Position numbers and translations under genes: made by a program. Positions 1-21,529 of a stretch of 64,000 nucleotides of DNA are shown in pieces. The notes beneath the pieces are model-generated. The model saw only the letters and a program-made list of their open reading frames with translations, was not told the origin of the DNA and ran no database searches. The first letter of the stretch is position 1. Each line of letters starts with the position of its first letter. The stretch spans positions 1 through 64,000 of the forward strand of contig CALXUG010000005.1 in the NCBI GenBank assembly GCA_944391625.1, written 5' to 3'. Source of the DNA: an uncultured Clostridia bacterium. Lineage in GTDB: Bacteria > Bacillota > Peptococcia > Peptococcales > Peptococcaceae.

Positions 1-51
1 AGGGGGAACAGCACCCCTTGAAAAATCAGGGGAAAATGGACGAGTTCCTAC

Positions 52-138
52 TAATTGGGGATAACACAGCTCATGGCTGGCGGCGGTATCATCCTGCTGG
101 GAACCACGCTGATCCCTCTGCTGTCTGGCCTGTTTTAA
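52..138 (+). pseudogene. C-terminal fragment of a Maff2-like small membrane protein
   Basis: The last ~28 codons read I-T-Q-L-M-A-G-G-G-I-I-L-L-G-T-T-L-I-P-L-L, the C-terminal hydrophobic segment of Maff2-family proteins, which sit just before the TrbL/VirB6-like gene in clostridial ICEs and may act as a VirB2-like pilin. In the same frame there are stops at 19-21 (TGA) and 49-51 (TAA), and the first ~50 bases do not look like Maff2. The gene is therefore interrupted or cut by an insertion whose 3' end lies in the window. No start or ribosome site for a shorter protein is evident, although an ATG occurs at 73. Confidence 0.5.
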
Positions 139-149
139 GGTAACGGCTT

Positions 150-1016
150 ATGGGTATTCTCACCGAATGGATCACGGAATGGCTGAAAGGGCTTTTGATC
201 GAGGGGATCATGGGAAACCTCACGGGGCTTTTTGACACGGTGAATACCCGAGTCGGAGAAATCGCGGTACAGGTGGGAACTCCCCCGGCGGCGTGGAACG
301 CCGGGGTTTTCTCCCTCATACGGCAAATATCCGAAACGGTGATTTTACCGATTGCCGGACTGATCCTAACCTTTGTTGCAACCTATGAACTGATCCAGAT
401 GCTCATAGACAGGAACAATCTGCATGACATCGACACATGGATATTCTTCAAGTGGATATTCAAAACGGCGGCGGCCATCCTCATTCTCTCCAACACATTC
501 AATATTGTAAACGCGGTATTTGATGTGTCGCAGAGCGTGATCGCCCGGTCTGCCGGTATCATTCAAGGCTCTACGGACATCACGCCGGGGATGCTGGATA
601 CGCTGGAGGCCACCTTAGAAACGATGGGCCTTGGGGAGCTGCTGGGGCTGTTTATGCAGTCCATGCTGATTGGCTTTACTATGACTGCGCTGAACATTAT
701 TATTTTCGTTCTTGTCTATGGCCGTATGCTGGAGATCTATATGCTGACCAGTTTGGCCCCCATCCCCGTGGCGACCCTCTCCAACCGGGAAGTCGGACAG
801 ATGGGCCAAAACTACTTGAAATCCCTGTTTGCCGTGGGCTTCCAAGGGCTGCTCATTTTGTTGTGTGTGGGCATCTATGGCGTGTTGGTGCAGGGCATCT
901 CCACCAGCGGCGACCCCATCGGGGCCATTTGGGGCTGCGTGGGGTACACGGTTTTGCTCTGCTTTATGCTGTTCAAAACCGGGACGATCAGCAAGAGTAT
1001 CTTTGGCGCACATTGA
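150..1016 (+). CDS. TrbL/VirB6-like conjugal transfer membrane protein
   Basis: 288 residues with about five hydrophobic segments (roughly residues 55-78, 93-115, 163-195, 230-250 and 258-280) and polar loops. This is the pattern of VirB6/TrbL-type inner-membrane channel components of type IV secretion in Gram-positive ICEs (the CD1112-like family). An AAGG ribosome site lies upstream of the ATG. It follows the Maff2-like gene and precedes a SpoVG-like gene, the usual clostridial ICE order. It probably forms part of the DNA-transfer channel with VirB4 and PrgI encoded downstream. The family assignment rests on topology and context rather than a catalytic motif. Confidence 0.8.
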   Translation: MGILTEWITEWLKGLLIEGIMGNLTGLFDTVNTRVGEIAVQVGTPPAAWNAGVFSLIRQISETVILPIAGLILTFVATYELIQMLIDRNNLHDIDTWIFFKWIFKTAAAILILSNTFNIVNAVFDVSQSVIARSAGIIQGSTDITPGMLDTLEATLETMGLGELLGLFMQSMLIGFTMTALNIIIFVLVYGRMLEIYMLTSLAPIPVATLSNREVGQMGQNYLKSLFAVGFQGLLILLCVGIYGVLVQGISTSGDPIGAIWGCVGYTVLLCFMLFKTGTISKSIFGAH

Positions 1017-1033
1017 GAAAGGAAAAATAAATT

Positions 1034-1600
1034 ATGGCGAAAGCACAGACGGCGGCACAGGCCGCCCCTACTGTTGACGAGGCGGCGCTGGCAGAAATGC
1101 GCCGCTTAATTTTTGACGCGCCCATCGCGGAACTGGCAGAGTCCCAAGGAATTTCCGTTGATGAGGCGGTAAAGCTCCGGGTGGAGAAAAATCTGGAGGA
1201 GGCTCCGATGCCTGTTACGGTAACGGTGCGCCCGATTGAGCCCCAAGGCAAGCTGCTGGGATTTGCCAGCGTAAACTTTGGCGGTGTGGTGGTAGATGAC
1301 TTTAAGGTGGTGGACGGAAAAAACGGCGTTTTTCTCGGTGCGCCCAGCAAGCCAGATCCCACCAGCAGAACGGGCTACCGCTCCACGGCTCGGGTAACTG
1401 ACCGGGCCTTGCAGGAACGGCTGGACGCTGCCGCCGCCGAAGGGTATTCCGTAGCGGTGGAAAAGCTGATTGCCCGCGCCGAGGCGGTGCGGCCTGCCCC
1501 TATCAAAGAGCAGATGGCACAGGCGGCCAAGGATGCTGAAAAGGCCAATGCCGCCCGCAGCACCCCGCCCAAGGGTAAGGAGGCGCGGGATGACCGATAA
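1034..1600 (+). CDS. SpoVG-family protein of the ICE
   Basis: 188 residues. The central part (about residues 57-105) matches the SpoVG fold: V-T-V-R-P-I, then K-L-L-G-F-A-S-V, then a D-F-K-V-V-D-G-K-N-G-V-F stretch followed by P-S-K-P. SpoVG proteins are small nucleic-acid-binding regulators, and ICE-borne versions commonly sit between the TrbL-like and methyltransferase genes. Residues before and after the domain are Ala/Glu-rich and probably helical. An AAAGGA site precedes the ATG. The 3' end overlaps the start of the next gene by 11 bases, so the two are likely translationally coupled. Its role in transfer is not known to me. Confidence 0.75.
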   Translation: MAKAQTAAQAAPTVDEAALAEMRRLIFDAPIAELAESQGISVDEAVKLRVEKNLEEAPMPVTVTVRPIEPQGKLLGFASVNFGGVVVDDFKVVDGKNGVFLGAPSKPDPTSRTGYRSTARVTDRALQERLDAAAAEGYSVAVEKLIARAEAVRPAPIKEQMAQAAKDAEKANAARSTPPKGKEARDDR

Positions 1601-2375
1601 GGTAACTTCGGGACAAATTGTCCCGAAGCTGACCGAGGGCCTGTTTCTTATGGACGGGATCAAGGGACTTTTGTCCTTGCCCCGTCATTCGGTGGATATG
1701 CTTTTGACCGATCCGCCCTACGGCACAACCAAAAACTATTGGGATGTGCCTTTGCCGCTGGATGCGCTGTGGGAGGCGGTGCGCTGGGCGGTAAAACCAA
1801 ACGGCGCGGCCCTGTTCTTCGCTCAATGCCCCTATGACAAGGTGCTGGGGGCCTCCAACCTCTCCATGCTCCGCTACGAGTGGATATGGTACAAGGAGCG
1901 TGGAACGGGCTTTCTCAATGCCAACCGAGCGCCGCTGAAAAAGTCGGAGAACATTCTTGTGTTCTATCAAAAGTCCCCGGCCTACTTCCCGCAGTTTACT
2001 TATGGGGAGCCGTACAGCAAGGTACACGCCCGCAGCGGCACCAGCCCCAACTATGGCAAGTTTGAGCGGCAGGGCTCATCATCCAACGACGGGCGGCGCT
2101 ATCCGGGGAATGTGCTGTTTGTGCAGACGGTGGCGCATCCTACTCACCCCACACAAAAGCCCGTGGAGCTGTGCGAATATCTCATTAAAACCTACACCCG
2201 CCCCGGTGAGGTGGTGGCCGATCTCTGTGCTGGCTCCGGGACAACCGCCGTGGCCGCCCTCAATACGGGCCGCCGTTTCGTCTGCTTTGAAACCGCCCCG
2301 GCCATTTACGGCCCCGCCGCCCAGCGCATTGAACAGGCACGGCTGGCCGTGGCCCGCGGCGAGAAAGGAGAATGA
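1590..2375 (+). CDS. DNA methyltransferase, DPPY type (N6-adenine/N4-cytosine)
   Basis: 261 residues. Catalytic motif T-D-P-P-Y (residues 40-44) comes before the SAM-binding motif D-L-C-A-G-S-G-T-T (about 211-219), and H-P-T-Q-K-P-V-E lies just upstream of it. This order fits a beta-class N6-adenine or N4-cytosine methyltransferase. The start is placed at ATG 1590 because AAGGAGG precedes it; a longer upstream reading overlaps the SpoVG gene without a ribosome site. No restriction partner is adjacent, so it probably protects the element on transfer or acts as an orphan enzyme. Residues 6-13 (T-S-G-Q-I-V-P-K) are encoded by palindrome copy 1, an apparent insertion in the N-terminus. Confidence 0.85.
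   Translation: MTDKVTSGQIVPKLTEGLFLMDGIKGLLSLPRHSVDMLLTDPPYGTTKNYWDVPLPLDALWEAVRWAVKPNGAALFFAQCPYDKVLGASNLSMLRYEWIWYKERGTGFLNANRAPLKKSENILVFYQKSPAYFPQFTYGEPYSKVHARSGTSPNYGKFERQGSSSNDGRRYPGNVLFVQTVAHPTHPTQKPVELCEYLIKTYTRPGEVVADLCAGSGTTAVAALNTGRRFVCFETAPAIYGPAAQRIEQARLAVARGEKGE
1605..1629. repeat. ICE palindrome, copy 1
   Basis: Arms ACTTCGGGACA and TGTCCCGAAGC around AAT, with one outer mismatch. It lies 15 bases into the DPPY methyltransferase gene and is read in frame as T-S-G-Q-I-V-P-K. Confidence 0.9.
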
Positions 2376-3016
2376 CCATCGGACAATATCCCATTATTTA
2401 CGCCGATCCCCCTTGGCAGTATCAGCGAAGCAAGGTACAGGGGGCGGCGGAGAACCATTACCCCACCATGAGTATCAATGAATTGTGCGCGCTGCCTGTG
2501 GCCGAGCTTGCGGCCCCGGACTGCGCGCTTTTTTTGTGGGCGACTTTTCCCCAGCTCCCGGAGGCTCTGCGGCTCATAGAGGCGTGGGGCTTTACCTATA
2601 AAAGCGTGGCCTTTGTCTGGCTGAAAAAGAACAAAAAAGCGGATAGCTGGTTTTACGGGCTGGGCTTTTGGACGCGGGGCAACGCTGAAATCTGTCTGCT
2701 GGCGACGAGGGGCCACCCCAAGCGGCAGGCGGCCAATGTCCATCAGTTTATCATTTCACCCATTGAAGCCCACAGCAAAAAGCCCGACGAGGCCCGTGAC
2801 AAGATCGTGGCCCTCATGGGCGACCTGCCCCGTGTGGAGCTGTTCGCAAGGCAGACCCCGCCCGGCTGGGAGGTGTGGGGGAACGAGGTGGAGCCCACGA
2901 TCCGGGACTTTGGGACAAAGTGTCCCAAGGTTGACGGCGGCAGAAAGGAGGCCGATCATGCCGTATGTGAATGTACCCAACGACCTATCCAAAATCAAAA
3001 CCAAAATTGCCTTTAA
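2372..3016 (+). CDS. MT-A70 family N6-adenine methyltransferase
   Basis: 214 residues. The D-P-P-W catalytic motif is at residues 12-15, followed by F-L-W-A-T-F and a conserved G-F-W-T-R-G-N-A-E region with E-A-H-S-K-K-P-D-E near residue 135. These are hallmarks of phage- and ICE-encoded MT-A70 enzymes that methylate adenine. Its start overlaps the preceding methyltransferase stop (ATGA), so the two are coupled. The last ~37 residues, after W-G-N-E-V-E-P-T, are not typical: they are encoded by palindrome copy 2 and then by prgI sequence read in another frame. The repeat appears to have displaced the original stop. Confidence 0.85.
   Translation: MTIGQYPIIYADPPWQYQRSKVQGAAENHYPTMSINELCALPVAELAAPDCALFLWATFPQLPEALRLIEAWGFTYKSVAFVWLKKNKKADSWFYGLGFWTRGNAEICLLATRGHPKRQAANVHQFIISPIEAHSKKPDEARDKIVALMGDLPRVELFARQTPPGWEVWGNEVEPTIRDFGTKCPKVDGGRKEADHAVCECTQRPIQNQNQNCL
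2907..2931. repeat. ICE palindrome, copy 2
   Basis: Arms ACTTTGGGACA and TGTCCCAAGGT around AAG. It lies at the 3' end of the MT-A70 gene, 26 bases before the prgI start, and is read there as D-F-G-T-K-C-P-K-V, a different frame from copies 1 and 3. Confidence 0.88.
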
Positions 3017-3341
3017 CCTTACCAAGCGCCAGTTGATCTGCTTCGGCGGCGCGGCGCTGGTAGGCGTCCCGGTCTATCTGCTGTCCCGAAGCTCTATCGG
3101 CAGCACCGGGGCCATGTTCCTCATGCTGGCCGTTATGCTCCCGGCGTTTATGCTTGCCATGTATGAGCGGGACGGCCTGCCCTTTGAAAAGGTGGTGCGG
3201 AACATCATCCGGGCCAAGTTCACCTGGCCCGGCATCAGACCGTACAAAACGCAGAATATCTATGCTCCGTTTGCGGGAAAGGAGGAGCCTATTGCAGACA
3301 AAAAGCAAACCCCAAAAGCGCGGCACCGCAAGGGCCGCTAA
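2958..3341 (+). CDS. PrgI-family type IV secretion protein
   Basis: 127 residues starting M-P-Y-V-N-V-P-N-D-L, the usual PrgI opening, with two hydrophobic segments near residues 27-43 and 49-65 and a basic tail. PrgI-like proteins are short VirB3-like partners of VirB4 in Gram-positive conjugation systems. The start is fixed by AAAGGAGG at 2944-2951. The gene begins inside the out-of-frame tail of the MT-A70 gene, and its 3' end overlaps the virB4 start by 50 bases. That arrangement suggests coupled synthesis of the PrgI-VirB4 pair. Confidence 0.85.
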   Translation: MPYVNVPNDLSKIKTKIAFNLTKRQLICFGGAALVGVPVYLLSRSSIGSTGAMFLMLAVMLPAFMLAMYERDGLPFEKVVRNIIRAKFTWPGIRPYKTQNIYAPFAGKEEPIADKKQTPKARHRKGR

Positions 3342-5658
3342 AGGCCGGGCCGGACTTTCGGCCCAGCAGACCATCCCCTATATCGCCATGCACCCGGACG
3401 GCGTGTGCCAGCTCCCCGGCGGTATCTACACAAAAACCGTGGAATATGAGGACATCAACTATTCCGTGGCCTCCACCGAGGATCAGACGGCTATCTTTGG
3501 CGGCTGGAGCTCATTCCTCAATTACTTTGACAGCTCCCTGCCGTTCCAGCTTTCCTTTATCAACCGCCGTTCCCGTGACCGCAGCCGCTACAAGGTGAAT
3601 ATCCCGCCCGCCGAGGATGACTTCAACAGCGTCCGGGAGGAGTTCACCTCCATGCTGAAAAACCAGATCGCCAAAAGCAACAACGGCATTGAACGCACAA
3701 AATATATCACCTTCGGCCTGCCTGCCGAGGGTGTGGCCGAGGCCCGCCCCCGTCTGGAGCGTGTGGAGGCCGATGTGATGGGAAACCTCCATCGGCTGGG
3801 CGTTCAGTCGGAGCCGCTGGCTGGCCGGGATCGGCTGGCTCTGCTCCATAGCCAGATGCACCCCGGCAATCGGGAGCCGTTCCGCTTTGCGTGGAAGGAC
3901 ATCCCCAAGCACGGCCTTGGCACCAAGGACTATATCGCCCCGGACAGCTTCGACTTCCGGGACAGCCGCACTTTCCGGGTGGGCCGCTATTGGGGCGCGG
4001 CGTCCTATTTGCAGATTTTGGCGTCGGAGCTGTCTGACAAGCTCCTTGCCGAGATTTTGGAATTGGATGCGGAGCTGACCGTCACCATGCACATTCAGAC
4101 GGTGGATCAGCTCAAGGCCATTAAGACCATCAAGGGAAAAATCTCTGACATTGGCCGCATGAAGGCCGAGGAACAGAAAAAGGCTGTCCGGGCAGGGTAC
4201 GACATGGAGATTTTGCCCCCCGACCTCATTACCTTTTCCAAGGACGCCGCCGAGCTGCTGGCAGACCTCCAGTCCCGGAATGAAAGAATGTTCCTGCTGA
4301 CTTTTACGGTGGTGAACATGGCTCCCAACCGCCAGCGGCTGGAAAACGATGTGTTTACCGTGGGCGGTATCGCGCAGAAATATAATTGCGCCTTGAAGCG
4401 GCTGGACTGGCAACAGGAGCAGGCGTTTGTTTCCTCGCTGGCCCTCGGCTATAACGGGCTGGAGATCCAGCGGGGCATGACTACCAGCTCCACGGCCATT
4501 TTCATTCCCTTTATGACAAGGGAGCTGCGCATGGGCGGGCAGGCCCTCTACTACGGCATGAACGCCCTTTCCCACAATGTCATCATGGCTGACCGCAAAA
4601 AGCTGAAATCTGCCAACGGCCTGTACCTCGGCTCCACCGGCTCGGGCAAGAGCTTCGCCGCCAAGCGGGAGCTGCTCAATGTGTTTCTGACCATCCCGCA
4701 GGATCGAATAATCATTGTAGACCCAATGGGCGAATATGCCCCGCTGGTGCGTCGGCTGGGCGGACAGGTCATTGAGATCGCCCCGGACAGCCCCAACCAC
4801 ATCAATCCAATGGATATTCAAATGGGGATCAGCGACGAGGACAGCCCGCTTTCCATGAAGGCGGACTTTTTGCTTTCCCTGTGCGAGCTGGTGGTGGGCG
4901 GCAAGGAGGGCTTGCAGCCCATCGAAAAGACCGTCATTGACCGCTGTGTGCGGCTGGTCTACCGGGAAGTGGCGCTGGGGCTGGAAACGGCGAAAACGCC
5001 CCTGCTCCAAGATTTGTATGAGGAGCTTCTGCGCCAGCCCGAGCCAGAGGCCCGCCGTGTGGCGACCGCTTTGGAGCTCTACTGCACAGGCTCCCTCAAT
5101 CTGTTCAATCATCCAACCAATGTCAATCTCAATTCCCGTGTGGTGTGCATCGTCATCAAGGGGATGGGAGAAAACCTCCGCAAGATCGCCATGCACATTA
5201 CCAATGAGTTTGTCACGGCGGCGGTGAATACCAACTATGAAAACGGCGTGGCGACATGGTGTTACTTCGATGAGTTCCATGTGCTGCTCCGCGACCCCCT
5301 CACGGCCAGTTATTTCGTTCTGCTCTGGCGTACCCTGCGTAAGCGGGGCTGCGTCCCGTCGGCGTTGACGCAGAATGTAAAGAACCTGCTGGCCAGTCTG
5401 GAGATCGAGAATATTCTGGATAACACCGACTTTATGATCCTGCTGTCACAGGCACAGAGCGACCGGGCGATTTTGGCGAAGCAGCTCGGCATTTCCGAGC
5501 ATCAGCTTTCCTACATCACCCACTCCAATTCCGGTGAGGGGCTGCTGTTCTACGGCAACACCACCATTCCCTTTGTGGATCGTTTCCCTCGCGGTGAGAT
5601 TTATGACCTGCTGACGACCCGCCCGGAGGATATGGCCCATGAGCGAAAAGACGAGTAA
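3292..5658 (+). CDS. VirB4-like conjugation ATPase
   Basis: 788 residues. Walker A G-S-T-G-S-G-K-S is at residues 447-454 and Walker B C-Y-F-D-E-F has its acidic pair at 660-661. The N-terminal ~400 residues match the VirB4/TraC-type assembly ATPase. The start is placed at TTG 3292 because AAAGGAGG (3278-3285) is perfectly spaced from it; an ATG at 3154 would begin inside prgI with no ribosome site. The protein powers assembly of, or substrate transfer through, the type IV machine at the inner face of the membrane. Its 3' end overlaps the NlpC/P60 gene by 20 bases. Confidence 0.92.
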   Translation: MQTKSKPQKRGTARAAKGRAGLSAQQTIPYIAMHPDGVCQLPGGIYTKTVEYEDINYSVASTEDQTAIFGGWSSFLNYFDSSLPFQLSFINRRSRDRSRYKVNIPPAEDDFNSVREEFTSMLKNQIAKSNNGIERTKYITFGLPAEGVAEARPRLERVEADVMGNLHRLGVQSEPLAGRDRLALLHSQMHPGNREPFRFAWKDIPKHGLGTKDYIAPDSFDFRDSRTFRVGRYWGAASYLQILASELSDKLLAEILELDAELTVTMHIQTVDQLKAIKTIKGKISDIGRMKAEEQKKAVRAGYDMEILPPDLITFSKDAAELLADLQSRNERMFLLTFTVVNMAPNRQRLENDVFTVGGIAQKYNCALKRLDWQQEQAFVSSLALGYNGLEIQRGMTTSSTAIFIPFMTRELRMGGQALYYGMNALSHNVIMADRKKLKSANGLYLGSTGSGKSFAAKRELLNVFLTIPQDRIIIVDPMGEYAPLVRRLGGQVIEIAPDSPNHINPMDIQMGISDEDSPLSMKADFLLSLCELVVGGKEGLQPIEKTVIDRCVRLVYREVALGLETAKTPLLQDLYEELLRQPEPEARRVATALELYCTGSLNLFNHPTNVNLNSRVVCIVIKGMGENLRKIAMHITNEFVTAAVNTNYENGVATWCYFDEFHVLLRDPLTASYFVLLWRTLRKRGCVPSALTQNVKNLLASLEIENILDNTDFMILLSQAQSDRAILAKQLGISEHQLSYITHSNSGEGLLFYGNTTIPFVDRFPRGEIYDLLTTRPEDMAHERKDE

Positions 5659-7273
5659 GGGCACTTCGGGACAAAGTGTCCCGAAGTCCAAGTTCCGACA
5701 CAAGAGCCGGCAGGAACAGGCGGCGGAGTCCAAGCTCCGTATGGAAAAGCGGGGTGAAAAGCTGGATAAGGCCCGGGGCAAGCTGGCGAAACAGAAACCG
5801 CCCAAGCGTCCCGGCCCCGTGAAGCGTGCGGGCCGGGCGGCGCTGGGCGGCGTGCATGGCTTTGTGCACGGGAAAATCTATGAGGTGGAGCATGAAAATG
5901 TGGGCACCGAGGGCGCTCACCGCTCCGAGCTGGTGGGCGAGTCCGTTCTGCGGCATGGAACCCGCCATGTAAAAAAGGCCATCCGGGAACACCCGGAAAA
6001 AGCAGTCCGCAAGGCCGAGGCCAAGCATATCAAGGCCACGGCGGATTATCAGTTCCGGGCGGCGGCTCTGGAACACCCCGAGCTGGATCAAGGCGTGATC
6101 TCCCGGTATCTGCAAAAGCGGCACATTCAAAAGCAGTATGCGAAACAGGCGCGGGAGGCCGCCAAGCATGGGGCCAAGGCCGCCGAGAAAACGGCTGTCA
6201 CCACGGAGCGGCTGGCTGTCCGTGCGTGGGGCTTCGTCAAGCGGCATCCCGTGGGCGTGATCATTGCGCTGGCCTGCTGTCTGCTGATCTTCTCCCTCCA
6301 GTCCTGCGTTTCTTCTATGGCGTCGGTTGGCAACGGCCTTGTGGGAGCGGTGGCCGCCAGCACCTATCCGTCTGAGGATGGGGATATGCTGGGGGCCGAG
6401 GCCGCCTATTGTGCATTGGAGGCCGAGCTGCAGGAGTACCTCGACACCTATGAGGCCACCCACGATTATGACGAATACCATTTTGACCTCGATGACATTG
6501 AGCACGATCCCTATGTGCTGATCTCTATGCTCTCGGCGCTCCATGAGGGGGCGTGGACGGTGGACGAGGTACAGGGTACGCTTCAAAGCCTGTTTGACCG
6601 CCAGTACATTCTCACCGAGGATGTGGTGGTGGAGGTGCGGTATCGGACGGAAACCCGGACGGACAGCGAGGGCAACACCTACACGGTGCAGGTGCCCTAT
6701 AACTACTATATTTGCTATGTGACGCTGGAAAACTTCAACCTCTCCCATGTGCCGATCTACATGATGACCGAGGAACAGCTTTCCCGGTATGCCCTCTATA
6801 TGGCTACGCTGGGCAACCGCCCCGACCTGTTCCCGGAGTCCGGCTATGTGCCCAAGTACACCAACCCGCCCCCGGAGCATGACATCCCGGAGGAATATCT
6901 GGCCGATGAAACCTTTGCGGCTATTCTGGCGGAGGCGGAAAAATATGTGGGCTTCCCCTATGTGTGGGGCGGCAGTAGTCCCTCCACCTCTTTTGATTGC
7001 TCTGGCTTCGTCAGCTATGTCTACAATCAATGCGGCTGGGACTTCGGGCGGCTGGGAGCCCAAGGGCTCTACAACATTTCCACCCGGACAAATAACCCCA
7101 AGCCCGGCGATCTGGTTTTCTTCACGGGAACCTATGACACCCCGGGCGTTTCCCATTGCGGCATTTATGTGGGGGATGGCTGGATGCTCCATTGCGGCGA
7201 CCCCATCAGCTATGCCAATTTGAACAACAGCTATTGGCAGTCCCACCTATATGCCTACGGCAAACTTTATTGA
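5639..7273 (+). CDS. NlpC/P60 cell-wall hydrolase of the conjugation machine (CD1108-like)
   Basis: 544 residues. The basic N-terminal region of ~200 residues is rich in Lys/Arg/Ala, a single membrane segment lies near residues 206-224, and an extracellular part ends in an NlpC/P60 domain. Catalytic Cys454 sits in F-D-C-S-G-F-V and His506 in V-S-H-C-G-I-Y-V-G. Such enzymes cut peptidoglycan locally so the conjugation channel can cross the wall (VirB1-like role). Residues 9-16 (T-S-G-Q-S-V-P-K) come from palindrome copy 3. The start overlaps the virB4 end, so translation is probably coupled. Confidence 0.9.
   Translation: MSEKTSKGTSGQSVPKSKFRHKSRQEQAAESKLRMEKRGEKLDKARGKLAKQKPPKRPGPVKRAGRAALGGVHGFVHGKIYEVEHENVGTEGAHRSELVGESVLRHGTRHVKKAIREHPEKAVRKAEAKHIKATADYQFRAAALEHPELDQGVISRYLQKRHIQKQYAKQAREAAKHGAKAAEKTAVTTERLAVRAWGFVKRHPVGVIIALACCLLIFSLQSCVSSMASVGNGLVGAVAASTYPSEDGDMLGAEAAYCALEAELQEYLDTYEATHDYDEYHFDLDDIEHDPYVLISMLSALHEGAWTVDEVQGTLQSLFDRQYILTEDVVVEVRYRTETRTDSEGNTYTVQVPYNYYICYVTLENFNLSHVPIYMMTEEQLSRYALYMATLGNRPDLFPESGYVPKYTNPPPEHDIPEEYLADETFAAILAEAEKYVGFPYVWGGSSPSTSFDCSGFVSYVYNQCGWDFGRLGAQGLYNISTRTNNPKPGDLVFFTGTYDTPGVSHCGIYVGDGWMLHCGDPISYANLNNSYWQSHLYAYGKLY
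5663..5687. repeat. ICE palindrome, copy 3 (perfect)
   Basis: Perfect arms ACTTCGGGACA and TGTCCCGAAGT around AAG, 24 bases after the ATG of the NlpC/P60 gene and read as T-S-G-Q-S-V-P-K. Confidence 0.95.
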
Positions 7274-7292
7274 TAAAGGAGGATTTTTGAAT

Positions 7293-7556
7293 ATGGCAAT
7301 CAGCAAAAGCGCGAAAATCGAGGCCGAGATCGAAAAGGTCAAGGCCAAGATCGCGGAACAGCAGACCCGCTTGAAGGAGCTGGAGCAGAAAAAGCTGGAG
7401 GCGGAAAACAGCGAGATCGTGGACATCGTGCGGGGCATGAGCATTTCCCTCACCGATCTGCCCCTGTTGCTCCAGTCCATCCAGAACGGCGGCAAGGCAG
7501 CTTTGGGACAAAGTGTCCCGAAGTCTGCTTCCCCGGAAGTGGAGGTGGCGGAATGA
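7293..7556 (+). CDS. DUF4315 coiled-coil protein
   Basis: 87 residues. The first ~45 residues form a charged coiled coil (repeating K-I-E-A-E-I-E-K-V-K pattern), followed by I-V-R-G-M-S-I-S-L-T-D-L-P-L-L-L, typical of the DUF4315 family found next to NlpC/P60 genes in clostridial ICEs. AAAGGAGG (7275-7283) sets the start at ATG 7293. The C-terminus contains L-G-Q-S-V-P-K-S encoded by palindrome copy 4. The stop overlaps the next start. Function is unknown; the conserved position suggests a small accessory part of the transfer apparatus. Confidence 0.8.
   Translation: MAISKSAKIEAEIEKVKAKIAEQQTRLKELEQKKLEAENSEIVDIVRGMSISLTDLPLLLQSIQNGGKAALGQSVPKSASPEVEVAE
7500..7524. repeat. ICE palindrome, copy 4
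   Basis: GCTTTGGGACA, AAG, TGTCCCGAAGT. It lies 32 bases before the DUF4315 stop codon and is read as A-L-G-Q-S-V-P-K. Confidence 0.9.
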
Positions 7557-8308
7557 AAAGAGGATTTAGGTTGCTGACGACGGTGCTTTGTGCCGTCGTT
7601 CTTTTATGCGGTTTTTCCGTCACGGCCTATGCCGGTGGCGGCGACGAGTACATCGAGGAAACCACGCCCCCCGAGCAGACCGGGGGCGTGAACTGGGAGG
7701 GGCTTGACCCGGTGGAGCCCGGCGAGGGCTTTTCCGAGGAGGGCTCCCTTGTGACCCGCGATCTGCTCTATGACAAGCACACCAACAAGCAGTTTATCAC
7801 CGTCCAGACCAGCGGCGGCAGCACTTTCTATATCGTCATCGACTACGATAAGCCGGTGAACGAGGAGGAAGAACAGTATCAAACTTATTTTTTCAGCGTT
7901 GTGGACGAGGCCGACCTGCTGGCCGCTATGGAGGCCGTCGGCGGCGAGCCGCCTGCCTGCACCTGCGGGGATAAATGCGCGGTGGGGGCCATCCATACCG
8001 ATTGCCCCATCTGCTCCGTCAACATGGGCGAATGTACTGGCGTGACCCCCGAGCCCGAACCCGAACCCACCCCGGAGCCCGAGGAACCCGAGAAAAAAAG
8101 CGGGCTGGGCTCGCTGTTCCTTGTGCTTGCCATCTTCGCCATTGGCGGCGGGGCCGGGTGGTACTTCAAGATTTACCGCCCCAAGCACCAGCAGGCCGCC
8201 GCGCCCGAGGATGACTACGAGGAAGAAATGGACGCTTACAACGATTTTGAGGATGACGGCCCTCCGTGGGACGAGGACGATCCCGAACCCGAGGAGGACA
8301 ATGTATGA
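7553..8308 (+). CDS. DUF4366 exported, membrane-anchored protein (CD1107-like)
   Basis: 251 residues. An N-terminal signal peptide (residues 1-27, ending near V-T-A-Y-A-G) is followed by an extracellular domain with a Cys cluster (C-T-C-G-D-K-C and C-P-I-C near residues 137-160). After a Pro-Glu repeat linker comes a membrane helix near residues 184-202 and a strongly acidic cytoplasmic tail. This is the DUF4366 architecture seen beside NlpC/P60 genes in Gram-positive ICEs. It likely sits at the cell surface as part of the mating apparatus; no enzymatic motif is visible. It shares ATGA overlaps with both neighbours. Confidence 0.82.
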   Translation: MKRGFRLLTTVLCAVVLLCGFSVTAYAGGGDEYIEETTPPEQTGGVNWEGLDPVEPGEGFSEEGSLVTRDLLYDKHTNKQFITVQTSGGSTFYIVIDYDKPVNEEEEQYQTYFFSVVDEADLLAAMEAVGGEPPACTCGDKCAVGAIHTDCPICSVNMGECTGVTPEPEPEPTPEPEEPEKKSGLGSLFLVLAIFAIGGGAGWYFKIYRPKHQQAAAPEDDYEEEMDAYNDFEDDGPPWDEDDPEPEEDNV

Positions 8309-8481
8309 ATTTCACTAACAGCCCTTACGAAACCATGATGAAAAGGCCGTCCCATATCCAGCCCCCGGCCACGCCCAAGGCCCCCAAGGGCTCCCGCTGT
8401 GACGGATGCCCCTACTGGCGGGGCATCGCCTGTATGTCCTGCTACCGGGATTTGCTCAAACCTCCGGCTGGCGGGAGGTGA
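8305..8481 (+). CDS. Small Cys-rich ICE protein
   Basis: 58 residues with a compact C-D-G-C-P-Y-W-R-G-I-A-C-M-S-C motif near residues 32-46, likely a zinc-binding knuckle. The ATG overlaps the preceding stop (ATGA) and the gene is followed after four bases by the next start, so it is part of the same transcription unit. Size, position and the four cysteines support a real gene. I do not recognise a named family, and its role is unknown. Confidence 0.65.
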   Translation: MNFTNSPYETMMKRPSHIQPPATPKAPKGSRCDGCPYWRGIACMSCYRDLLKPPAGGR

Positions 8482-8485
8482 TGCT

Positions 8486-8854
8486 GTGGCCCGTGAGCTG
8501 ACCCGAGAGGAAAAGGGGAAAATCCGTGCGCTGGTGACAAAGTGGTGCGCCAACTACGACCGGGAATACGGCTGCTTACCGCTGGATTGTGAGTGTTATA
8601 TGCTGGGGAAATGCTGGACAGGGGCCTTTTGCCGTTACTTTCGGGATGCCGTTCTGCCCCTTGATCCTGTGCTGGAGGCGGGGCTGGCCGCCGAGGGCCC
8701 CGCCCCGGAAACCCGGCTCTGCCCGGTCTGCGGCAGCGTCTTTCTCCCGGACGGCAGGACGCGCTACTGCTCCCCGGCCTGTGCCAAGAAAGCCCACCGC
8801 CGCCAGCAGCGGGATCACATGAAGAAAAAGCGGGGCTGGTCTGTTGACAATTAG
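8486..8854 (+). CDS. Cysteine-rich VLP-domain protein
   Basis: 122 residues starting at GTG 8486, preceded by GGGAGGTG. The first half carries W-C-A-N-Y-D-R-E-Y-G-C-L-P-L-D-C-E-C-Y, the Cys-rich VLP pattern found in clostridial mobile elements. The second half has a treble-clef-like C-P-V-C-G-S-V-F-L then Y-C-S-P-A-C-A-K-K-A-H-R, typical of zinc fingers. It is probably a nucleic-acid-binding accessory protein of the element. A longer in-frame reading to ATG 8399 overlaps the previous gene and has no ribosome site. A terminator-like hairpin follows. Confidence 0.75.
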   Translation: MARELTREEKGKIRALVTKWCANYDREYGCLPLDCECYMLGKCWTGAFCRYFRDAVLPLDPVLEAGLAAEGPAPETRLCPVCGSVFLPDGRTRYCSPACAKKAHRRQQRDHMKKKRGWSVDN

Positions 8855-8860
8855 GCCCGA

Positions 8861-8890
8861 AAAAAGCCCGGTATCTCAAGGCTTTTTGGG
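8861..8890 (+). terminator. Terminator-like hairpin after the Cys-rich VLP gene
   Basis: AAAAAGCC (8861-8868) and GGCTTTTT (8880-8887) form a hairpin ending in a T run, in the 160-base gap before the next gene. Confidence 0.55.
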
Positions 8891-8967
8891 GCCGCTTTAG
8901 GGGTGGGCCGTATGTTTTTACTGCCCGCCCCTGTTTGGCCCCGATGCTGTCAACATTTGTACGCTGT

Positions 8968-8992
8968 ACTTCGGGACAAAGTGTCCCAAAGT
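8968..8992. repeat. ICE palindrome, copy 5
   Basis: Arms ACTTCGGGACA and TGTCCCAAAGT around AAG, in the intergenic gap 23 bases before the ATG at 9016. Confidence 0.92.
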
Positions 8993-9015
8993 ATGGTGTT
9001 TTGGAAGGAGGAACC

Positions 9016-9972
9016 ATGCCGAAGTATTATGAAATCAACGAGGCGGCGGCAAAGCGGGCAAAGGATATGAACAGCTTTTCCGACTACAAGCCCGGCTCGG
9101 CTACCAGCGCCTACCGCCAGATGGTGGATGAGGCGTATGCCATAGCGGAACGCCAGAAGGCCCGTGTCGATCCCATGTACCATGACAAGATCGATGCGCT
9201 GGTTGACCGCTACGCCAAAAAGCTGGCCGCCAACCTCAACGAGTCCCATGTCATTGATGGCCGTGTGCCGTCTATTCTGATCGCCGGGGGCGGCAATTTC
9301 CCGGTACGCAAAAAGGAAAAGCAGAACGCCGCCCGTGACCGCAATATGGGCGAGTACATGGAAATTGAAAAGCTGCTGGATAAGATCAAGTCTGTGGGTA
9401 CGGGCGGGATCAGCGCCGATGATGACCTTGCCGTGGAAAAGCTGGAAAAAAAGCTGGCGGGGCTGGAGGAGCTGCAAGCCACCATGAAAAGCGTCAACGC
9501 CTATTATCGCAAACACAAGACTTTGGAGGGCTGCCCCGGCCTGTCCGACGAGGATATTGGCAGGCTGCAATCCTCTATGGCGAATGACTGGCGCAAAGAC
9601 CCGGTGCCGTACCCCTCTTTTCTGCTGACAAACAACAACGCCAATATCCGCCGGGTGCGCCAGCGCATTGACGATCTGAAAAACCGCAGCGAGTTTGTGG
9701 GCTGGACTTTCCCCGGCGGCGAGGCCAAGATCAACGAGGCCGAGAACCGCCTGCAACTGCTTTTCGATGAAAAGCCCCCGGAGGATCAGCGGCGGGCGCT
9801 GAAATCCGAGGGCTTCAAGTGGGCTCCCAGCCAAGGCGCGTGGCAGCGGCAGCTCAATCAGAACGCGATCCGGGCGGCGGCTCGTCTGGACTTCCTGCGT
9901 CCCGAGGACGGCCAGAGCCCCTATCAGCTCCAGCCCTTTGCCCGGAAAGCGGAAAAGGATATATCACGATAA
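9016..9972 (+). CDS. ICE protein of unknown function with helical N-terminal region
   Basis: 318 residues. AAGGAGG sets ATG 9016. The body is highly charged and helical (residues 60-170), and the C-terminal part contains G-F-K-W-A-P-S-Q-G-A-W-Q-R-Q-L near residues 271-285. This Trp-rich motif recurs at the ends of several unrelated mobile-element proteins in clostridia (DUF3560-type and antirestriction-associated proteins). I recognise no enzymatic motif. Its place between the Cys-rich gene and mobC matches accessory-region genes thought to act in the recipient or in relaxosome support, which is inference only. Confidence 0.65.
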   Translation: MPKYYEINEAAAKRAKDMNSFSDYKPGSATSAYRQMVDEAYAIAERQKARVDPMYHDKIDALVDRYAKKLAANLNESHVIDGRVPSILIAGGGNFPVRKKEKQNAARDRNMGEYMEIEKLLDKIKSVGTGGISADDDLAVEKLEKKLAGLEELQATMKSVNAYYRKHKTLEGCPGLSDEDIGRLQSSMANDWRKDPVPYPSFLLTNNNANIRRVRQRIDDLKNRSEFVGWTFPGGEAKINEAENRLQLLFDEKPPEDQRRALKSEGFKWAPSQGAWQRQLNQNAIRAAARLDFLRPEDGQSPYQLQPFARKAEKDISR

Positions 9973-9981
9973 GGAGGAACG

Positions 9982-10581
9982 ATGGATAAAAACCAAGGCT
10001 ATGCCATTCTGAAGGCCGTCATGCTGGAAAACGGCAGGGGCTTTGCGCTGGGGGAACACCCCACCGCTCCGTCCCCCTATGTCACATGGGCCTGTTACGA
10101 TGACAAAAACGGCCAGCGTCAATATGAGTGGGGGCACTACGGAAACGATCTGACCGCTATGGAAAAGGATTTTGCAGACCGGGTGCAGGATTATCAGCGG
10201 CTTTTCAAGGTCAAAGTCGTGCAGATCGAGGCCCCCGGCCTTTACAAGTATTATTCCACCCAGCGGCCCGTGGACATCGGCACATTCCCGAAACCGCCCC
10301 ACAACGCCCCGGATGAGATCGTCAACTACGATCAGCGCGTCCCCGTGGAGGGCGGCGCGTTTGTGGCGTGGGGCCATCTGACCTACACCAAGCCGCTGAC
10401 GGAAAAGCAGGCGTCCGACTATGAGCTCCGTCCCGCACCCAATATTTCCGAGCTGCGGCGGGAAAGCGGCGACAGGCCCCGGTCGATTGCCCAGCAGATG
10501 AAGGAGGCTGCTGCTCTGGCCGAGGCCAACCGGGGCGATCCTGCCCCCAAGAAAAAAGCCCCCGACCGGGGCGACCGATAG
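9982..10581 (+). CDS. ICE hypothetical protein
   Basis: 199 residues, with GGAGG immediately upstream of the ATG. The N-terminal domain (residues 1-120) contains aromatic stretches such as Y-V-T-W-A-C-Y-D-D-K-N-G and Y-E-W-G-H-Y; a disordered Pro/Lys/Asp-rich tail follows. There is no signal peptide, membrane segment or catalytic motif. Tight spacing (9 bases from the previous stop) and GC-rich codon use match the ICE backbone. I do not recognise the family. It may belong to the variable accessory set upstream of mobC. Confidence 0.6.
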   Translation: MDKNQGYAILKAVMLENGRGFALGEHPTAPSPYVTWACYDDKNGQRQYEWGHYGNDLTAMEKDFADRVQDYQRLFKVKVVQIEAPGLYKYYSTQRPVDIGTFPKPPHNAPDEIVNYDQRVPVEGGAFVAWGHLTYTKPLTEKQASDYELRPAPNISELRRESGDRPRSIAQQMKEAAALAEANRGDPAPKKKAPDRGDR

Positions 10582-10592
10582 GAGGAACGAAA

Positions 10593-10772
10593 ATGGAAGA
10601 TAGATATAATCCCATGAAAAGTGCGGAGATCGCCGCCGAGCATAACTACAACATGATCGACGGTGTTCTGAACAACCAGCTCCCGGCTCTGCCCCCGGAA
10701 CAGGAAAAGGAGCTGGATAAGGTGAAAGAGCCGCCCAACAAGCGCCGCAGCCGGGAGCGCGAGGAGCGATGA
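10593..10772 (+). CDS. Small ICE protein, DUF4316-like
   Basis: 59 residues with a good GGAGG site and a stop that overlaps the mobC start (ATGA). The sequence M-K-S-A-E-I-A-A-E-H-N-Y-N-M-I-D-G-V resembles the short tail region of DUF4316 proteins that precede mobC in clostridial elements. The C-terminus is very basic (K-R-R-S-R-E-R-E-E-R). Translational coupling to mobC suggests a relaxosome-related role, but that is inference. Confidence 0.6.
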   Translation: MEDRYNPMKSAEIAAEHNYNMIDGVLNNQLPALPPEQEKELDKVKEPPNKRRSREREER

Positions 10773-11116
10773 CAAAAAAGCGCGTCCGCTGTATGCCGAT
10801 CTATGTATGGGTGCGCCCCGATGAAATGGAGGTTATTCAAGGGCGTATGGCCGAGGCCGGGATCAGTAATCTGAGCGCCTATGTCCGCAAAATGGCGCTC
10901 AATGGGTATGTGCTCCATGTTGACCTCTCGGACATCCGGGAGCTGGTTTCCTTACAGCGCCGGTGTGCAAATAACCTCAATCAAGTTGCGATACAGGCCA
11001 ATACCTACGGGGGCATCTACCCCGAGGAGATTGCCCAGCTTCAAAAGGACTATGCCGCTTTGTGGGAGCCGCTGTCCGATCTGCTGAAGAAGCTCTCCGC
11101 TGTGACGGCGCTCTGA
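10769..11116 (+). CDS. mobC: MobC-like relaxosome accessory protein
   Basis: 115 residues. The N-terminal basic ribbon (T-K-K-R-V-R-C-M-P-I-Y-V-W-V-R-P-D-E) is followed by S-A-Y-V-R-K-M-A-L-N-G, and the C-terminal region L-Q-R-R-C-A-N-N-L-N-Q-V-A-I-Q-A-N is the diagnostic MobC signature. MobC proteins bind the origin of transfer and help the relaxase nick it. In related elements the relaxase gene follows directly. Here a ~2.6-kb minus-strand cargo module lies between mobC and the relaxase gene, so the usual mobC-relaxase transcription unit has been split. Confidence 0.85.
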   Translation: MTKKRVRCMPIYVWVRPDEMEVIQGRMAEAGISNLSAYVRKMALNGYVLHVDLSDIRELVSLQRRCANNLNQVAIQANTYGGIYPEEIAQLQKDYAALWEPLSDLLKKLSAVTAL

Positions 11117-12569: not shown

Positions 12570-13033
12570 TTCTGCACCCCCTTTTTATCTGTTAAAATTT
12601 CCGCGGTTCTTGTACCTACAAAATGCAGATATTTTTGGAATGCAGATAAAAATATTTCCCTCTCTTTGCCATCCAAACTTTCAAAAGCCTCCTGCTCTAT
12701 TCCGACTAACGGATAAATAAACTCTTTACAAAAATCTTCACCTCTTGCAGTAAGAGTGAGGGCTTTCCGTTTTCTTGCGTCCTGCATATCTTCAAGTTTG
12801 ATATAGCCATTTTTTACAAGTTGATTGACGGAAGCATTGATTGTCTGCTTGGCAAAATTCCACTCTCTGCAAAGATCATACTGTGTCAGCGGAGCTCCAA
12901 ACACACATACCGCATACATAATCCAGAGCTGCGTTTTTTGAAATTTAATTGCTGTCGCATAACTGTCATAAATCCCCTCATAATCCCTATATAACCTGTT
13001 CAGTTGTCGCTGGCACTCATTTAATTGCTCCAT
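12566..13033 (-). CDS. MarR-family transcriptional regulator (cargo module 1)
   Basis: 155 residues with a winged-helix core: L-T-Q-Y-D-L-C-R-E-W-N-F-A-K-Q-T-I-N-A-S-V-N-Q-L as helix-turn-helix, then D-A-R-K-R-K-A-L-T-L-T as the wing. The start is placed at ATG 13033, preceded by GGAGG with six-base spacing; the longer reading to 13057 overlaps the flavodoxin gene. It sits between flavodoxin and MATE in one transcript and most likely represses the operon by binding the large palindrome over the promoter at 13546-13599. Confidence 0.85.
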   Translation of the reverse strand: MEQLNECQRQLNRLYRDYEGIYDSYATAIKFQKTQLWIMYAVCVFGAPLTQYDLCREWNFAKQTINASVNQLVKNGYIKLEDMQDARKRKALTLTARGEDFCKEFIYPLVGIEQEAFESLDGKEREIFLSAFQKYLHFVGTRTAEILTDKKGVQK

Positions 13034-13034
13034 T

Positions 13035-13523
13035 TCATACCTCCAAACCAAGACCATTTACCCATTTCACAAGGCTTTCCGGTGTAATCCTTCCATTCAG
13101 CAATTTTCCTTTTTTCCAGTTGGTATTTTCAGAGCAGTATTTATGCAGATGATGTCCTATGCTCCCCCGAATACTTCCACCAGAAGTAGAAAAAGGAATG
13201 ATCGTCTTTCCTGAAAAATCATATCTCTCCAAAAAGGAATAGATAATGTTCGGGGCTTTTTCCCACCATATAGGATAACCCACAAATACATACTCATAGC
13301 CGTCAATGCTCGGGACATCAAGTTGAAACGACGGGCGGCTATCTTTGTCTTTCCATTCCCGGTAACAACGACTGTTCTTATCATTCCAGTCTAAATCAGC
13401 CTGTGAATAGGGTAATACCGCTTTTATCTCGCTGATGTCTGCCCCGACAGCCTTTGCCAGTTCCACTGCGACACTTTTCGTTGTTCCAGAAGCGGAAAAA
13501 TATGTAACTATCATTTTCTTCAA
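13035..13523 (-). CDS. Flavodoxin-like protein (cargo module 1)
   Basis: About 162 residues. The N-terminus M-I-V-T-Y-F-S-A-S-G-T-T-K-S-V-A is the FMN phosphate-binding loop (S/T-x-S/T-G-x-T). G-Y-P-I-W-W-E-K-A-P and S-T-S-G-G-S-I are the flavin-contacting loops of the long-chain flavodoxin-like family. The start is placed at TTG 13523 because GGAGG lies eight bases upstream; an in-frame ATG at 13538 lacks a ribosome site. First gene of the minus-strand cargo operon. It probably shuttles electrons in a detoxification or reductive step; the partner is not visible. Confidence 0.85.
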   Translation of the reverse strand: MKKMIVTYFSASGTTKSVAVELAKAVGADISEIKAVLPYSQADLDWNDKNSRCYREWKDKDSRPSFQLDVPSIDGYEYVFVGYPIWWEKAPNIIYSFLERYDFSGKTIIPFSTSGGSIRGSIGHHLHKYCSENTNWKKGKLLNGRITPESLVKWVNGLGLEV

Positions 13524-13545
13524 TCGAACAACCTCCATTCATTAT

Positions 13546-13852: not shown

Positions 13853-15271
13853 ACGGCCACAACCTACTTAAAGGCTCACCATATCAGCAAGGGGGAAACC
13901 ATCGCCCAATCGCTGAAAGACCGTTTTGAATATGGGCAGAACCCGGACAAGACCGAGGGCGGGGAGCTGATCTCCTCCTATGAGTGCGACCACATGACCG
14001 CCGATGCGGAGTTCCTGCTCTCCAAGGCAAAATACAAGGCCATCACGGGCCGGGAGCAGCGGCGGGATGCGGATGTGCTGTGCTATCAGATCCGCCAGTC
14101 TTTCAAGCCCGGAGAGATCACCCCCGAGGAGGCAAACCGTGTGGGATATGAGACAGCCATGCGCTGGACGAAGGGCAAACACGCCTTTTTCGTTGCCACC
14201 CATACAGACCGCCGCCATATCCATAACCACATTTATTATAATTCAACCGCGCTGGACTGTGCCCACAAATACCGGGATTTTTTCAGATCGGCCAGCGCCC
14301 TGCGGCGGCTCTCTGACCGGGTATGTCTGGAAAATGACCTGTCCGTGATTACCAGTCCCAAGCTGCACAGCAAGGGGCGTTTCCTCAACTACGGCCAATG
14401 GATCGGTGAGCGTCCCCCGTCTGCCCAGCAGAGGCTTCGTCTTGCCATCGGGGACACGCTGGCAAAAAAGCCCGCCGACTTCGAGGCGTTCCTGCGGCTT
14501 ATGGAGGGAGCCGGGTATGCCGTGAAGCGTGGGCGGGGCGGCGTGATCTCGTTCCTTGTGCCGGGGCAGAAGAAACCCACCCGGCTCCGGGCATCCACCT
14601 TGGGGGAAGGCTACGATCCCGAGGACATCCGGGCGGTGATTGCCGGGGAACGGCCTGCCCCGGAGATCCCGGACGAGGCCCCGCCGCCCCAGCGGATCAA
14701 TCTCATTATCGACATTCAAGAGCGGTTGAGCCAAGGCAAAGGCCCGGCCTATGAACGGTGGGCCAAGGTCTACAACCTCAAACAGATGGCCGCCGCCCTG
14801 CAATATCTCCGGGAGCATGAGCTGGGCGACTATGACGCGCTGGCCGCCAAGACCTCCGGGGCCGTGGATCGCTTTCATGCGCTGGCCGGGGAGCTGCGGG
14901 ACACCGAGACGGCCCTTGCCAAAACCTCTGAGCTCATGGCTGCCACGGTGGAATATGCCAAGACCCGCCCCGTGTTCGACGGCTACAAGGCGGCACGGTA
15001 CAGCAAGAAATATCTTGCCGAGTATGAGGCCGAACTTGCCAGCTACCGGGCGGCCAAGGCTGCTATGAATGATATTCTGGCCGGGGCCAAGCTCCCCAAG
15101 ATGGATGCGCTCAAAAAATCCCGCCGTGAACTGGCTGAAAAGAAAAAGGCCCTTTATGCGGAATATCGCAAAGCCCAGCAGGATATGCGGGAGGCCGTGG
15201 CGATCAAGGCCAACATCGATCATCTGCTCGGCGTAACCGGCGGGCGGGAAAATAAGGCACAGGAGCGATAG
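13853..15271 (+). CDS. Relaxase/mobilization nuclease with ACG at the expected start
   Basis: 472 residues if read from 13853. The conserved N-terminus A-T-T-Y-L-K-A-H-H-I-S-K-G and the metal-binding H-I-H-N-H-I-Y-Y-N-S motif mark an ICE relaxase that nicks oriT and pilots the strand. GGAGG (13841-13845) is seven bases before an ACG codon exactly where family members have ATG. No ATG, GTG or TTG occurs in frame between the upstream stop (13811) and ATG 13994. Starting at 13994 would delete ~47 residues including the N-terminal tyrosine motif. Either ACG (or ATA 13847) is used weakly, or the relaxase is inactivated. The C-terminal half is helical. Confidence 0.82.
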   Translation, partial: TATTYLKAHHISKGETIAQSLKDRFEYGQNPDKTEGGELISSYECDHMTADAEFLLSKAKYKAITGREQRRDADVLCYQIRQSFKPGEITPEEANRVGYETAMRWTKGKHAFFVATHTDRRHIHNHIYYNSTALDCAHKYRDFFRSASALRRLSDRVCLENDLSVITSPKLHSKGRFLNYGQWIGERPPSAQQRLRLAIGDTLAKKPADFEAFLRLMEGAGYAVKRGRGGVISFLVPGQKKPTRLRASTLGEGYDPEDIRAVIAGERPAPEIPDEAPPPQRINLIIDIQERLSQGKGPAYERWAKVYNLKQMAAALQYLREHELGDYDALAAKTSGAVDRFHALAGELRDTETALAKTSELMAATVEYAKTRPVFDGYKAARYSKKYLAEYEAELASYRAAKAAMNDILAGAKLPKMDALKKSRRELAEKKKALYAEYRKAQQDMREAVAIKANIDHLLGVTGGRENKAQER

Positions 15272-20217: not shown

Positions 20218-20305
20218 TGGTAGAGGCGGCCCCGGCTGCCGATCCCCGCCGTCCCTCCGTCCAGATCGCCACCTGTCACCCAAAATCTGAACGGAGGAAA
20301 AGATA

Positions 20306-21427
20306 ATGACTACAATCAATTTGAAAGATTTTTACTCTTGGTACTTAACCGATGAATATATTGAGGTTTCCGATGAAGTGGCTGCGGTGTTCTTGGCCGA
20401 TGTCCGTTATGAGATGGCCTACCAGCGGCGGCTCTCCCGCCACAAGGCGCAGTATTCTCTCGACTGTGACGATGGCATCGAATACTCCGCTTGTCTGCAT
20501 GAGCCTACGCCCCAAGAATTGTTGGAGCGTATGGAGCGGTTTTGCCTTTTGTGGAACGCCCTCAACTCTTTGCCCGAAGCACAGGGCCGCCGCCGTGTGA
20601 AAAGCTACAAGGTACATGAGATTGAAGCCGTCCCCGAGGATGAATGGGTAACGGTTCCCGATACCCACGAAGCCATTATCGACAAGGAGTCCTTTGAAAA
20701 GGTACAGGCGCTTTTGAAGCGTGATACCCGGTCAGCACCTAAAAGCCGGGAACTTCACCTGTTCAGCGGGTTTTTACGGTGTGCCGACTGCGGCAAGGCC
20801 ATTACCCGGAGCCAGAGCGGAAAAAATGTCTACTACGCTTGTTCTACTTACAAAAACCGTTCCCGGCTGGCTTGCTCCATGCACTCTATCAAGCACAACC
20901 GTCTGGAGGCCGCCGTCCTGTTTGCCATTCAACAGCAGGTGCATTTGGCGGTTTCCTACTCAGAGCTGGTGGCTCGTATCAATTCGGCTCCAATCAAAAA
21001 AAGCCAGTCTTTCCGACTGGACGATTTGATTACCACCAAGGAGCGGGAGCTGGCAAAAGTCACCCGATACAAGCAGTCTATTTATCAAGACTGGAAAGAC
21101 GGTGAAATTACCCAGCAGGAATACCGCACCATGAAAGCCGACTACGAACAGCAGTCCCAGCGGCTCTCCGATATTCTGGAGCGGCTGACCGCTGAACGGG
21201 CTGAACTGGCAAATGGCGTTGATCAAGAACACCCGGCGCTGGTGGCCTTTATGAAGTTTGAGAACATCGACGGGCTGTCCCGCGAAATCCTTATTGAGCT
21301 GATCGACCACATCAAGGTTTATGAAAACGGCAATATTAGCGTTCGCTTCAAGTTTGCCGATGAACTTCGCAAGATTGCGGAATACATTGAAATCAACACC
21401 ACAACCGATCCCGCCGTAGCGGGCTGA
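20306..21427 (+). CDS. In-frame chimera: sigma-factor-like N-terminus fused to serine-recombinase C-terminus
   Basis: 373 residues. Residues 1 to ~97 (M-T-T-I-N-L-K-D-F-Y-S-W-Y through L-N-S-L-P-E-A-Q-G-R-R) match the start of the small sigma-70-like proteins of clostridial ICEs. From ~98 on it matches the C-terminal half of a large serine recombinase: T-V-P-D-T-H-E-A-I-I-D linker, zinc ribbon R-C-A-D-C-G-K-A with its second Cys pair, then a long coiled coil. The sigma DNA-binding region and the recombinase catalytic serine domain are both missing. A deletion most likely fused two neighbouring genes, removing the integrase activity expected at this ICE end. GGAGG precedes the ATG, so the fusion can be translated. 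Confidence 0.8.
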   Translation: MTTINLKDFYSWYLTDEYIEVSDEVAAVFLADVRYEMAYQRRLSRHKAQYSLDCDDGIEYSACLHEPTPQELLERMERFCLLWNALNSLPEAQGRRRVKSYKVHEIEAVPEDEWVTVPDTHEAIIDKESFEKVQALLKRDTRSAPKSRELHLFSGFLRCADCGKAITRSQSGKNVYYACSTYKNRSRLACSMHSIKHNRLEAAVLFAIQQQVHLAVSYSELVARINSAPIKKSQSFRLDDLITTKERELAKVTRYKQSIYQDWKDGEITQQEYRTMKADYEQQSQRLSDILERLTAERAELANGVDQEHPALVAFMKFENIDGLSREILIELIDHIKVYENGNISVRFKFADELRKIAEYIEINTTTDPAVAG

Positions 21428-21495
21428 GCCCGCTACACACCCTTTCGACAGTGTGTTTTCCTAATAGGAAACATTCATAAGAACTAGATAAACTT

Positions 21496-21529
21496 GCAGG
21501 AGCAAAATCATTTGTTCCTGCTTTTTTTC
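21496..21529 (+). terminator. Terminator after the recombinase chimera
   Basis: Eleven-bp stem GCAGGAGCAAA with TTTGTTCCTGC (one G-T pair), loop ATCA, followed by eight T. Confidence 0.88.

Follow-up and report, generated by a model that had tools for sequence, protein, structure and literature searches.

A sigma-like/serine recombinase fusion gene in a conjugative element inserted at rho, very likely born of one deletion between short in-frame repeats

The window considered here, that is the whole stretch of 64,000 nucleotides that was analysed, contains near the right end of a conjugative element (ICE) a single open frame that begins like a sigma-like protein and ends like a large serine recombinase (LSR). 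This locus raises the question of how such a frame came into being, whether its product could do anything, and what became of the element that lost an intact recombinase gene to it. A preliminary description, made from the sequence alone, had recognized the sigma-like front and the zinc-ribbon back of the recombinase, and this composition was confirmed by the ORF itself, by Pfam and by the comparison with relatives (Table 1).

Table 1. Features of the element in the window, with positions, strand and remarks
Feature	Position	Strand	Remarks
Conjugation module: VirB6/TrbL, PrgI, VirB4, NlpC/P60, DUF4315, MobC-like	1..11116	+	colinear with intact relative
Relaxase, 472 aa counted from conserved ACG start	13853..15271	+	
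Shine-Dalgarno GGAGG, originally of the sigma-like gene, now ahead of the fusion	20293..20297	+	sequence; role suggested by position
Fusion ORF, 373 aa, ATG start	20306..21427	+	sigma-like front and LSR back
Sigma-derived half, residues 1-92, without region 4 (HTH)	20306..20581	+	comparison with intact relatives
Joint, direct-repeat copy CAGGGCCGCCG, codons Q-G-R(-R), in frame in both parents	20582..20592	+	
LSR-derived half, residues 98-373: recombinase-domain end, four-Cys zinc ribbon, coiled coil, C-terminus	20597..21424	+	
Right element end (attR arm), common to relatives, ending ...CTAATAGGAAACATTCATA	21428..21479	+	
Displaced last codons of host rho, and terminator	21480..21527	+	remaining rho and left end on C7 (L186 4623-5897)

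Relatives were taken as the best 80 loci kept from a scan of a genome collection, together with 12 loci from viral contigs. About 60 loci encode a 140-aa sigma-like protein whose front is matched by the first 96 residues of the fusion; residues 1-92 come from this front, while the back, from residue 97, comes from a 561-aa LSR. In the relatives these are separate genes: in all 59 loci where both are readable they follow each other in a constant order on one strand, and the matched parts are 1241-2368 bp apart, against 13 bp in the window, where they are joined into one open frame. Since each half is 57-95% identical (mostly 70-95%) to conserved proteins, the fusion is not a chance frame.

Concerning the domains, the intact LSR of locus L033 shows in Pfam a Resolvase domain at 26-183, a Recombinase domain at 207-327 and a zinc ribbon at 340-395. 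The fusion retains the LSR zinc ribbon (residues 152-207, E 1e-15), with its four zinc cysteines C159, C162, C179 and C190, which are invariant, and the coiled coil; its Recombinase domain (PF07508) is incomplete, profile positions 55-101 of 102 being found at residues 93-139, and the Resolvase-type catalytic domain with the active-site serine is absent, as the preliminary description had noticed. The label "sigma-like" proved right for the intact parent, which matches Sigma70_r4_2 at residues 82-132. The first 96 residues of the fusion do not match this profile and, as the match spans the position of the joint in the intact copies, the fusion is without most of region 4.

The alignment of each half with its intact homologs identified both parents and the joint between them. 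The sigma-like gene of the intact relatives reads ...NSLPE-x-QGRR-(I/V)DA..., their LSR reads ...YTGDLV-QGRR-RVKSYK..., and the fusion reads ...NSLPEA-QGRR-RVKSYK..., so that residues 93-96 are common to both parents. The earlier placement of the joint, at about 97 residues, was thus roughly right and can be tightened slightly, to codons 93-96, and the proposal of a deletion between two genes at G-R-R codons agrees with what we found, namely separate genes in the relatives and CAGGGCCGCCG at the joint. Both genes read this 11-bp direct repeat in one and the same frame, as Q-G-R. L033 and L036, the closest intact relatives, carry it at both sites, as do L046 and others, while some relatives share just 2-10 bp at the two sites. 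Because both copies stand in the same frame, an open fusion frame is expected after any deletion between them; the open frame is no sign of selection.

By comparison with the closest relatives, the deletion measures 1228 bp (L036) or 1822 bp (L033), and about 2 kb with others. The missing parts are the region-4 helix-turn-helix of the sigma-like protein (Sigma70_r4_2), the small ORFs between the genes, among them a DUF6870 protein in L033 and others, and residues 1-280 of the LSR, that is the catalytic domain and over half of the recombinase domain. We consider it very likely that one deletion of about 1.2-2.0 kb between CAGGGCCGCCG copies produced both the fusion and a stranded ICE in rho. 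In this scheme one copy of the repeat would have lain in the sigma-like gene and the other in the recombinase gene of an ICE inserted in the 3' end of rho, and the deletion between them probably proceeded by replication slippage or single-strand annealing. In one step it would have taken away sigma region 4, the small ORFs that lay between the genes and the catalytic domain of the LSR, an open frame following automatically from the in-frame repeat. The element would have kept both ends and lost its own enzyme for excision and integration, remaining stranded unless a close LSR relative acts in trans.

A different origin would be a crossover at CAGGGCCGCCG between two elements, the sigma half coming from an L045-like ICE and the LSR half from an L033-like one. 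The sigma half is indeed closest overall to L045 (89% aa, against 72% for the sigma protein of L033 itself), the LSR half has its best match in L033 (88% nt, 95% aa), and the window's fusion with L033 is the sole locus pair in which the LSR is at least 92% identical but the sigma protein at most 80%. The left side as a whole, however, does not follow L045: the intergenic DNA upstream of the sigma gene finds its best match in L033 (81% over 384 nt), the first 80 bp of the gene are L033/L036-like (88%), and the end of the sigma half has its nearest match in L036 (86%). The stretch closer to L045 than to L033 lies in the middle of the sigma gene, at 20386-20465, and since the upstream DNA and the start of the gene are L033/L036-like again, it is confined to an internal patch and does not make up the left side as a whole. 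This patch and the unique mismatch of identities indicate that some recombination with another element occurred too; a crossover at the joint itself is very unlikely, and a deletion inside one mosaic element would be the simplest reading of these similarities. Since the split from L033, the LSR half has 20 synonymous and 7 nonsynonymous changes on the window's branch and 16 and 3 on that of L033. The frame is intact and most of these changes are synonymous, so that a relaxation of constraint is not clearly visible. This counts against the deletion reading, but a recent deletion would give such a picture as well.

It could also be that the intact stretch exists in the organism and was collapsed or mis-joined, the circumstance under which, according to the preliminary description, the fusion would prove unreal. 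With 74 contigs the assembly is indeed fragmented, and one of the breaks, between C7 and C5, falls inside the element. Nevertheless, the 11-bp repeat is shorter than any usual assembly k-mer and would be too short to make an ordinary assembly collapse, the joint lies inside a long contig, and the deleted parts are found nowhere else: they have no other copy in the window, and a search of the whole assembly found neither sigma region 4 nor the N-terminal, catalytic half of the LSR, nor a second copy of the sigma gene. An artefact is therefore very improbable.

To consider what the fused protein might do, its fold was predicted. From the single sequence the prediction had a pLDDT of 41; a second model was made with 25 sequences, all of them LSR rows, the sigma half having no alignment depth. 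Here most of residues 150-360, in the LSR half, were modelled well (pLDDT ~85-95), and the joint region and the remnant of the recombinase domain with low confidence. Foldseek matched the LSR half to LI integrase (4kis), SPbeta integrase (9dxh) and PhiC31 integrase (9ibl), with E values from 3e-6 to 1e-4. Like the C-terminal domains of these integrases, the fusion has a zinc ribbon with an embedded coiled coil; unlike them, it has no catalytic domain and about 47 of the 121 residues of the recombinase domain.

The preliminary description had entertained a new function, namely DNA binding by the recombinase half. In a fuller version of this idea the fusion would be a regulator: zinc ribbon and coiled coil, expressed under the signals of the sigma gene, would bind to att sites, or to an LSR coming in from outside, and keep related elements silent. 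The fusion has retained its open frame, ribosome-binding site, four zinc cysteines and coiled coil; its LSR half is predicted to be well folded, and the LSR C-terminal domain is known to contact the att half-site through its recombinase (RD) and zinc (ZD) domains (PMC3783163). If this were true, a fusion acting as an LSR poison or as an end-occupying regulator would amount to host immunity against related elements. In LI integrase, however, the half-site is held by RD and ZD jointly, and without the zinc domain the affinity falls about 25-fold (PMC3783163); with under half of the recombinase domain left, the fusion would be a poor candidate for a strong DNA binder. Given also that it occurs only once, that its joint has no confident fold and that its open frame is expected from the register of the repeat, we found no support for this function and regard it as extremely improbable. 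Most likely the protein is a remnant that lacks a function and would be translated by means of the ribosome-binding site of the former sigma gene.

We also searched for the fusion elsewhere. The junction pattern occurs in none of 397 other genomes of the phylum, in none of 42 genomes known to carry the family and in none of the viral contigs searched, and none of the 59 related loci with both genes in view is fused. A widespread and conserved family of fusions, which the preliminary description had named as a refutation of its reading, can thus be discarded, there being no other copy in the genomes, relatives and viral contigs searched; the fusion is seen in one genome and belongs to an ordinary kind of genetic decay. 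Literature searches on truncated LSRs found nothing. Another decayed LSR of the same family was observed in locus L007 (G175 C4), where a frame change and a stop codon interrupt the gene, and therefore the loss of the LSR is not unique to the window's element.

The element itself has both ends. The right one was set at 21479, where the sequence common to relatives stops, and the left one, found through the alignment of two relatives, lies at 80878 of contig C7, which ends 6.7 kb beyond it in a small gene whose last part opens the window. The insertion site is the 3' end of rho, which is uninterrupted in genome G001; the joined flanks read ...GKNNKN-stop, followed by the terminator. The host Rho is altered by the insertion (L186 4623-5897), ending in NNRIASY instead of NNKN, and its gene is parted from its terminator. 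Relaxase, coupling protein, type IV secretion genes and both ends are present, as is proper to an ICE, and a working integrase of its own is lacking. Since no intact LSR copy was found elsewhere in the genome, whose other LSRs are at most 28% identical, the element is very probably no longer able to excise itself. This is what the preliminary description had expected, and it is in line with the absence from the genome of an intact sigma gene as well.

The conjugation genes show no gross breaks with respect to an intact relative, with one exception: at the contig junction a small gene, whose counterpart in the relative has 100 aa, is split between the start of the window (1-66) and the end of C7 (L186 12613-12621). 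The same 9 bp, CAGCTCATG, stand at both contig ends, and the window opens with ~57 bases that bear no relation to this gene; it looks as though the gene had been interrupted by an insertion that duplicated its target. Rfam gave no match at this contig start or around the fusion, and the assembly contains no second copy of these opening bases. Within the conjugation module, positions 9982-10581 encode a protein with a DarA C-terminal domain (Pfam DarA_C, E 2e-31; defence against restriction). A minus-strand block at 11235-13538 (MATE transporter, MarR-type regulator, flavodoxin) separates the MobC-like gene from the relaxase gene, which are closer together in relatives such as L182 and L184.

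A defect in the start of the relaxase had been proposed as a second lesion of the element, and this claim has to be withdrawn. The relaxase begins with ACG at 13853, seven bases behind a strong Shine-Dalgarno sequence, GGAGG, and of 32 distinct loci, counting the window, 25 have ACG as the homologous codon, 4 have ATG, and one each has ATA, ATC and CTG (codon at 13853-13855 of the window; the loci of the family include L147, L152, L153, L155-L157 and L160-L176). In nine loci, that of the window being one, no in-frame ATG, GTG or TTG lies upstream, and a start at the first ATG (13994) would drop the first 28 positions of the relaxase profile. Over codons 2-20, differences are mainly synonymous (660, against 246 nonsynonymous, summed over non-independent pairs), as expected if this stretch is translated. 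With a stricter DNA pattern, the start was found in the phylum sample only in the window's own genome, and once in viral contigs. The ACG start is therefore a feature of the family and gives no argument for a dead element. Possibly it allows a low level of initiation that keeps the relaxase scarce, a translational throttling of conjugation, comparable to the AUU start of infC. Literature searches on ACG-started relaxases found nothing; the conservation of this codon needs explaining, and it may be a more interesting lead than the fusion.

The intact LSR-bearing conjugative elements L033, L036 and L045 have the same gene order and terminal sequences as the window's element: conjugation module, MobC, relaxase, cargo, sigma-like gene, small ORFs and the LSR at the right end. 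We take their LSR to be of the TnpX/TndX type and their gene content to be Tn1549-like. Unlike these three, the window's copy is without the LSR catalytic half and sigma region 4. Fusions of two gene fragments that were brought into one open frame by a deletion have been described recently (Kaul et al. 2026, PMC12803068), with examples that lost the catalytic domains of their parents and were probably inert at birth. The present case is a real, recent-looking and single deletion-born fusion of that kind, with two fragments joined in one frame and a catalytic domain lost. It differs in that the deletion fell within a mobile element and removed the element's own recombinase, and in that the joint lies on a repeat that is in frame in both genes. 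It offers a clear example, at the level of single bases, of how a conjugative element can become trapped, a shared in-frame repeat deleting the excision enzyme and leaving behind a probably useless fusion gene; and since the repeat is present in many, even if not all, of the intact relatives, the same accident could recur.
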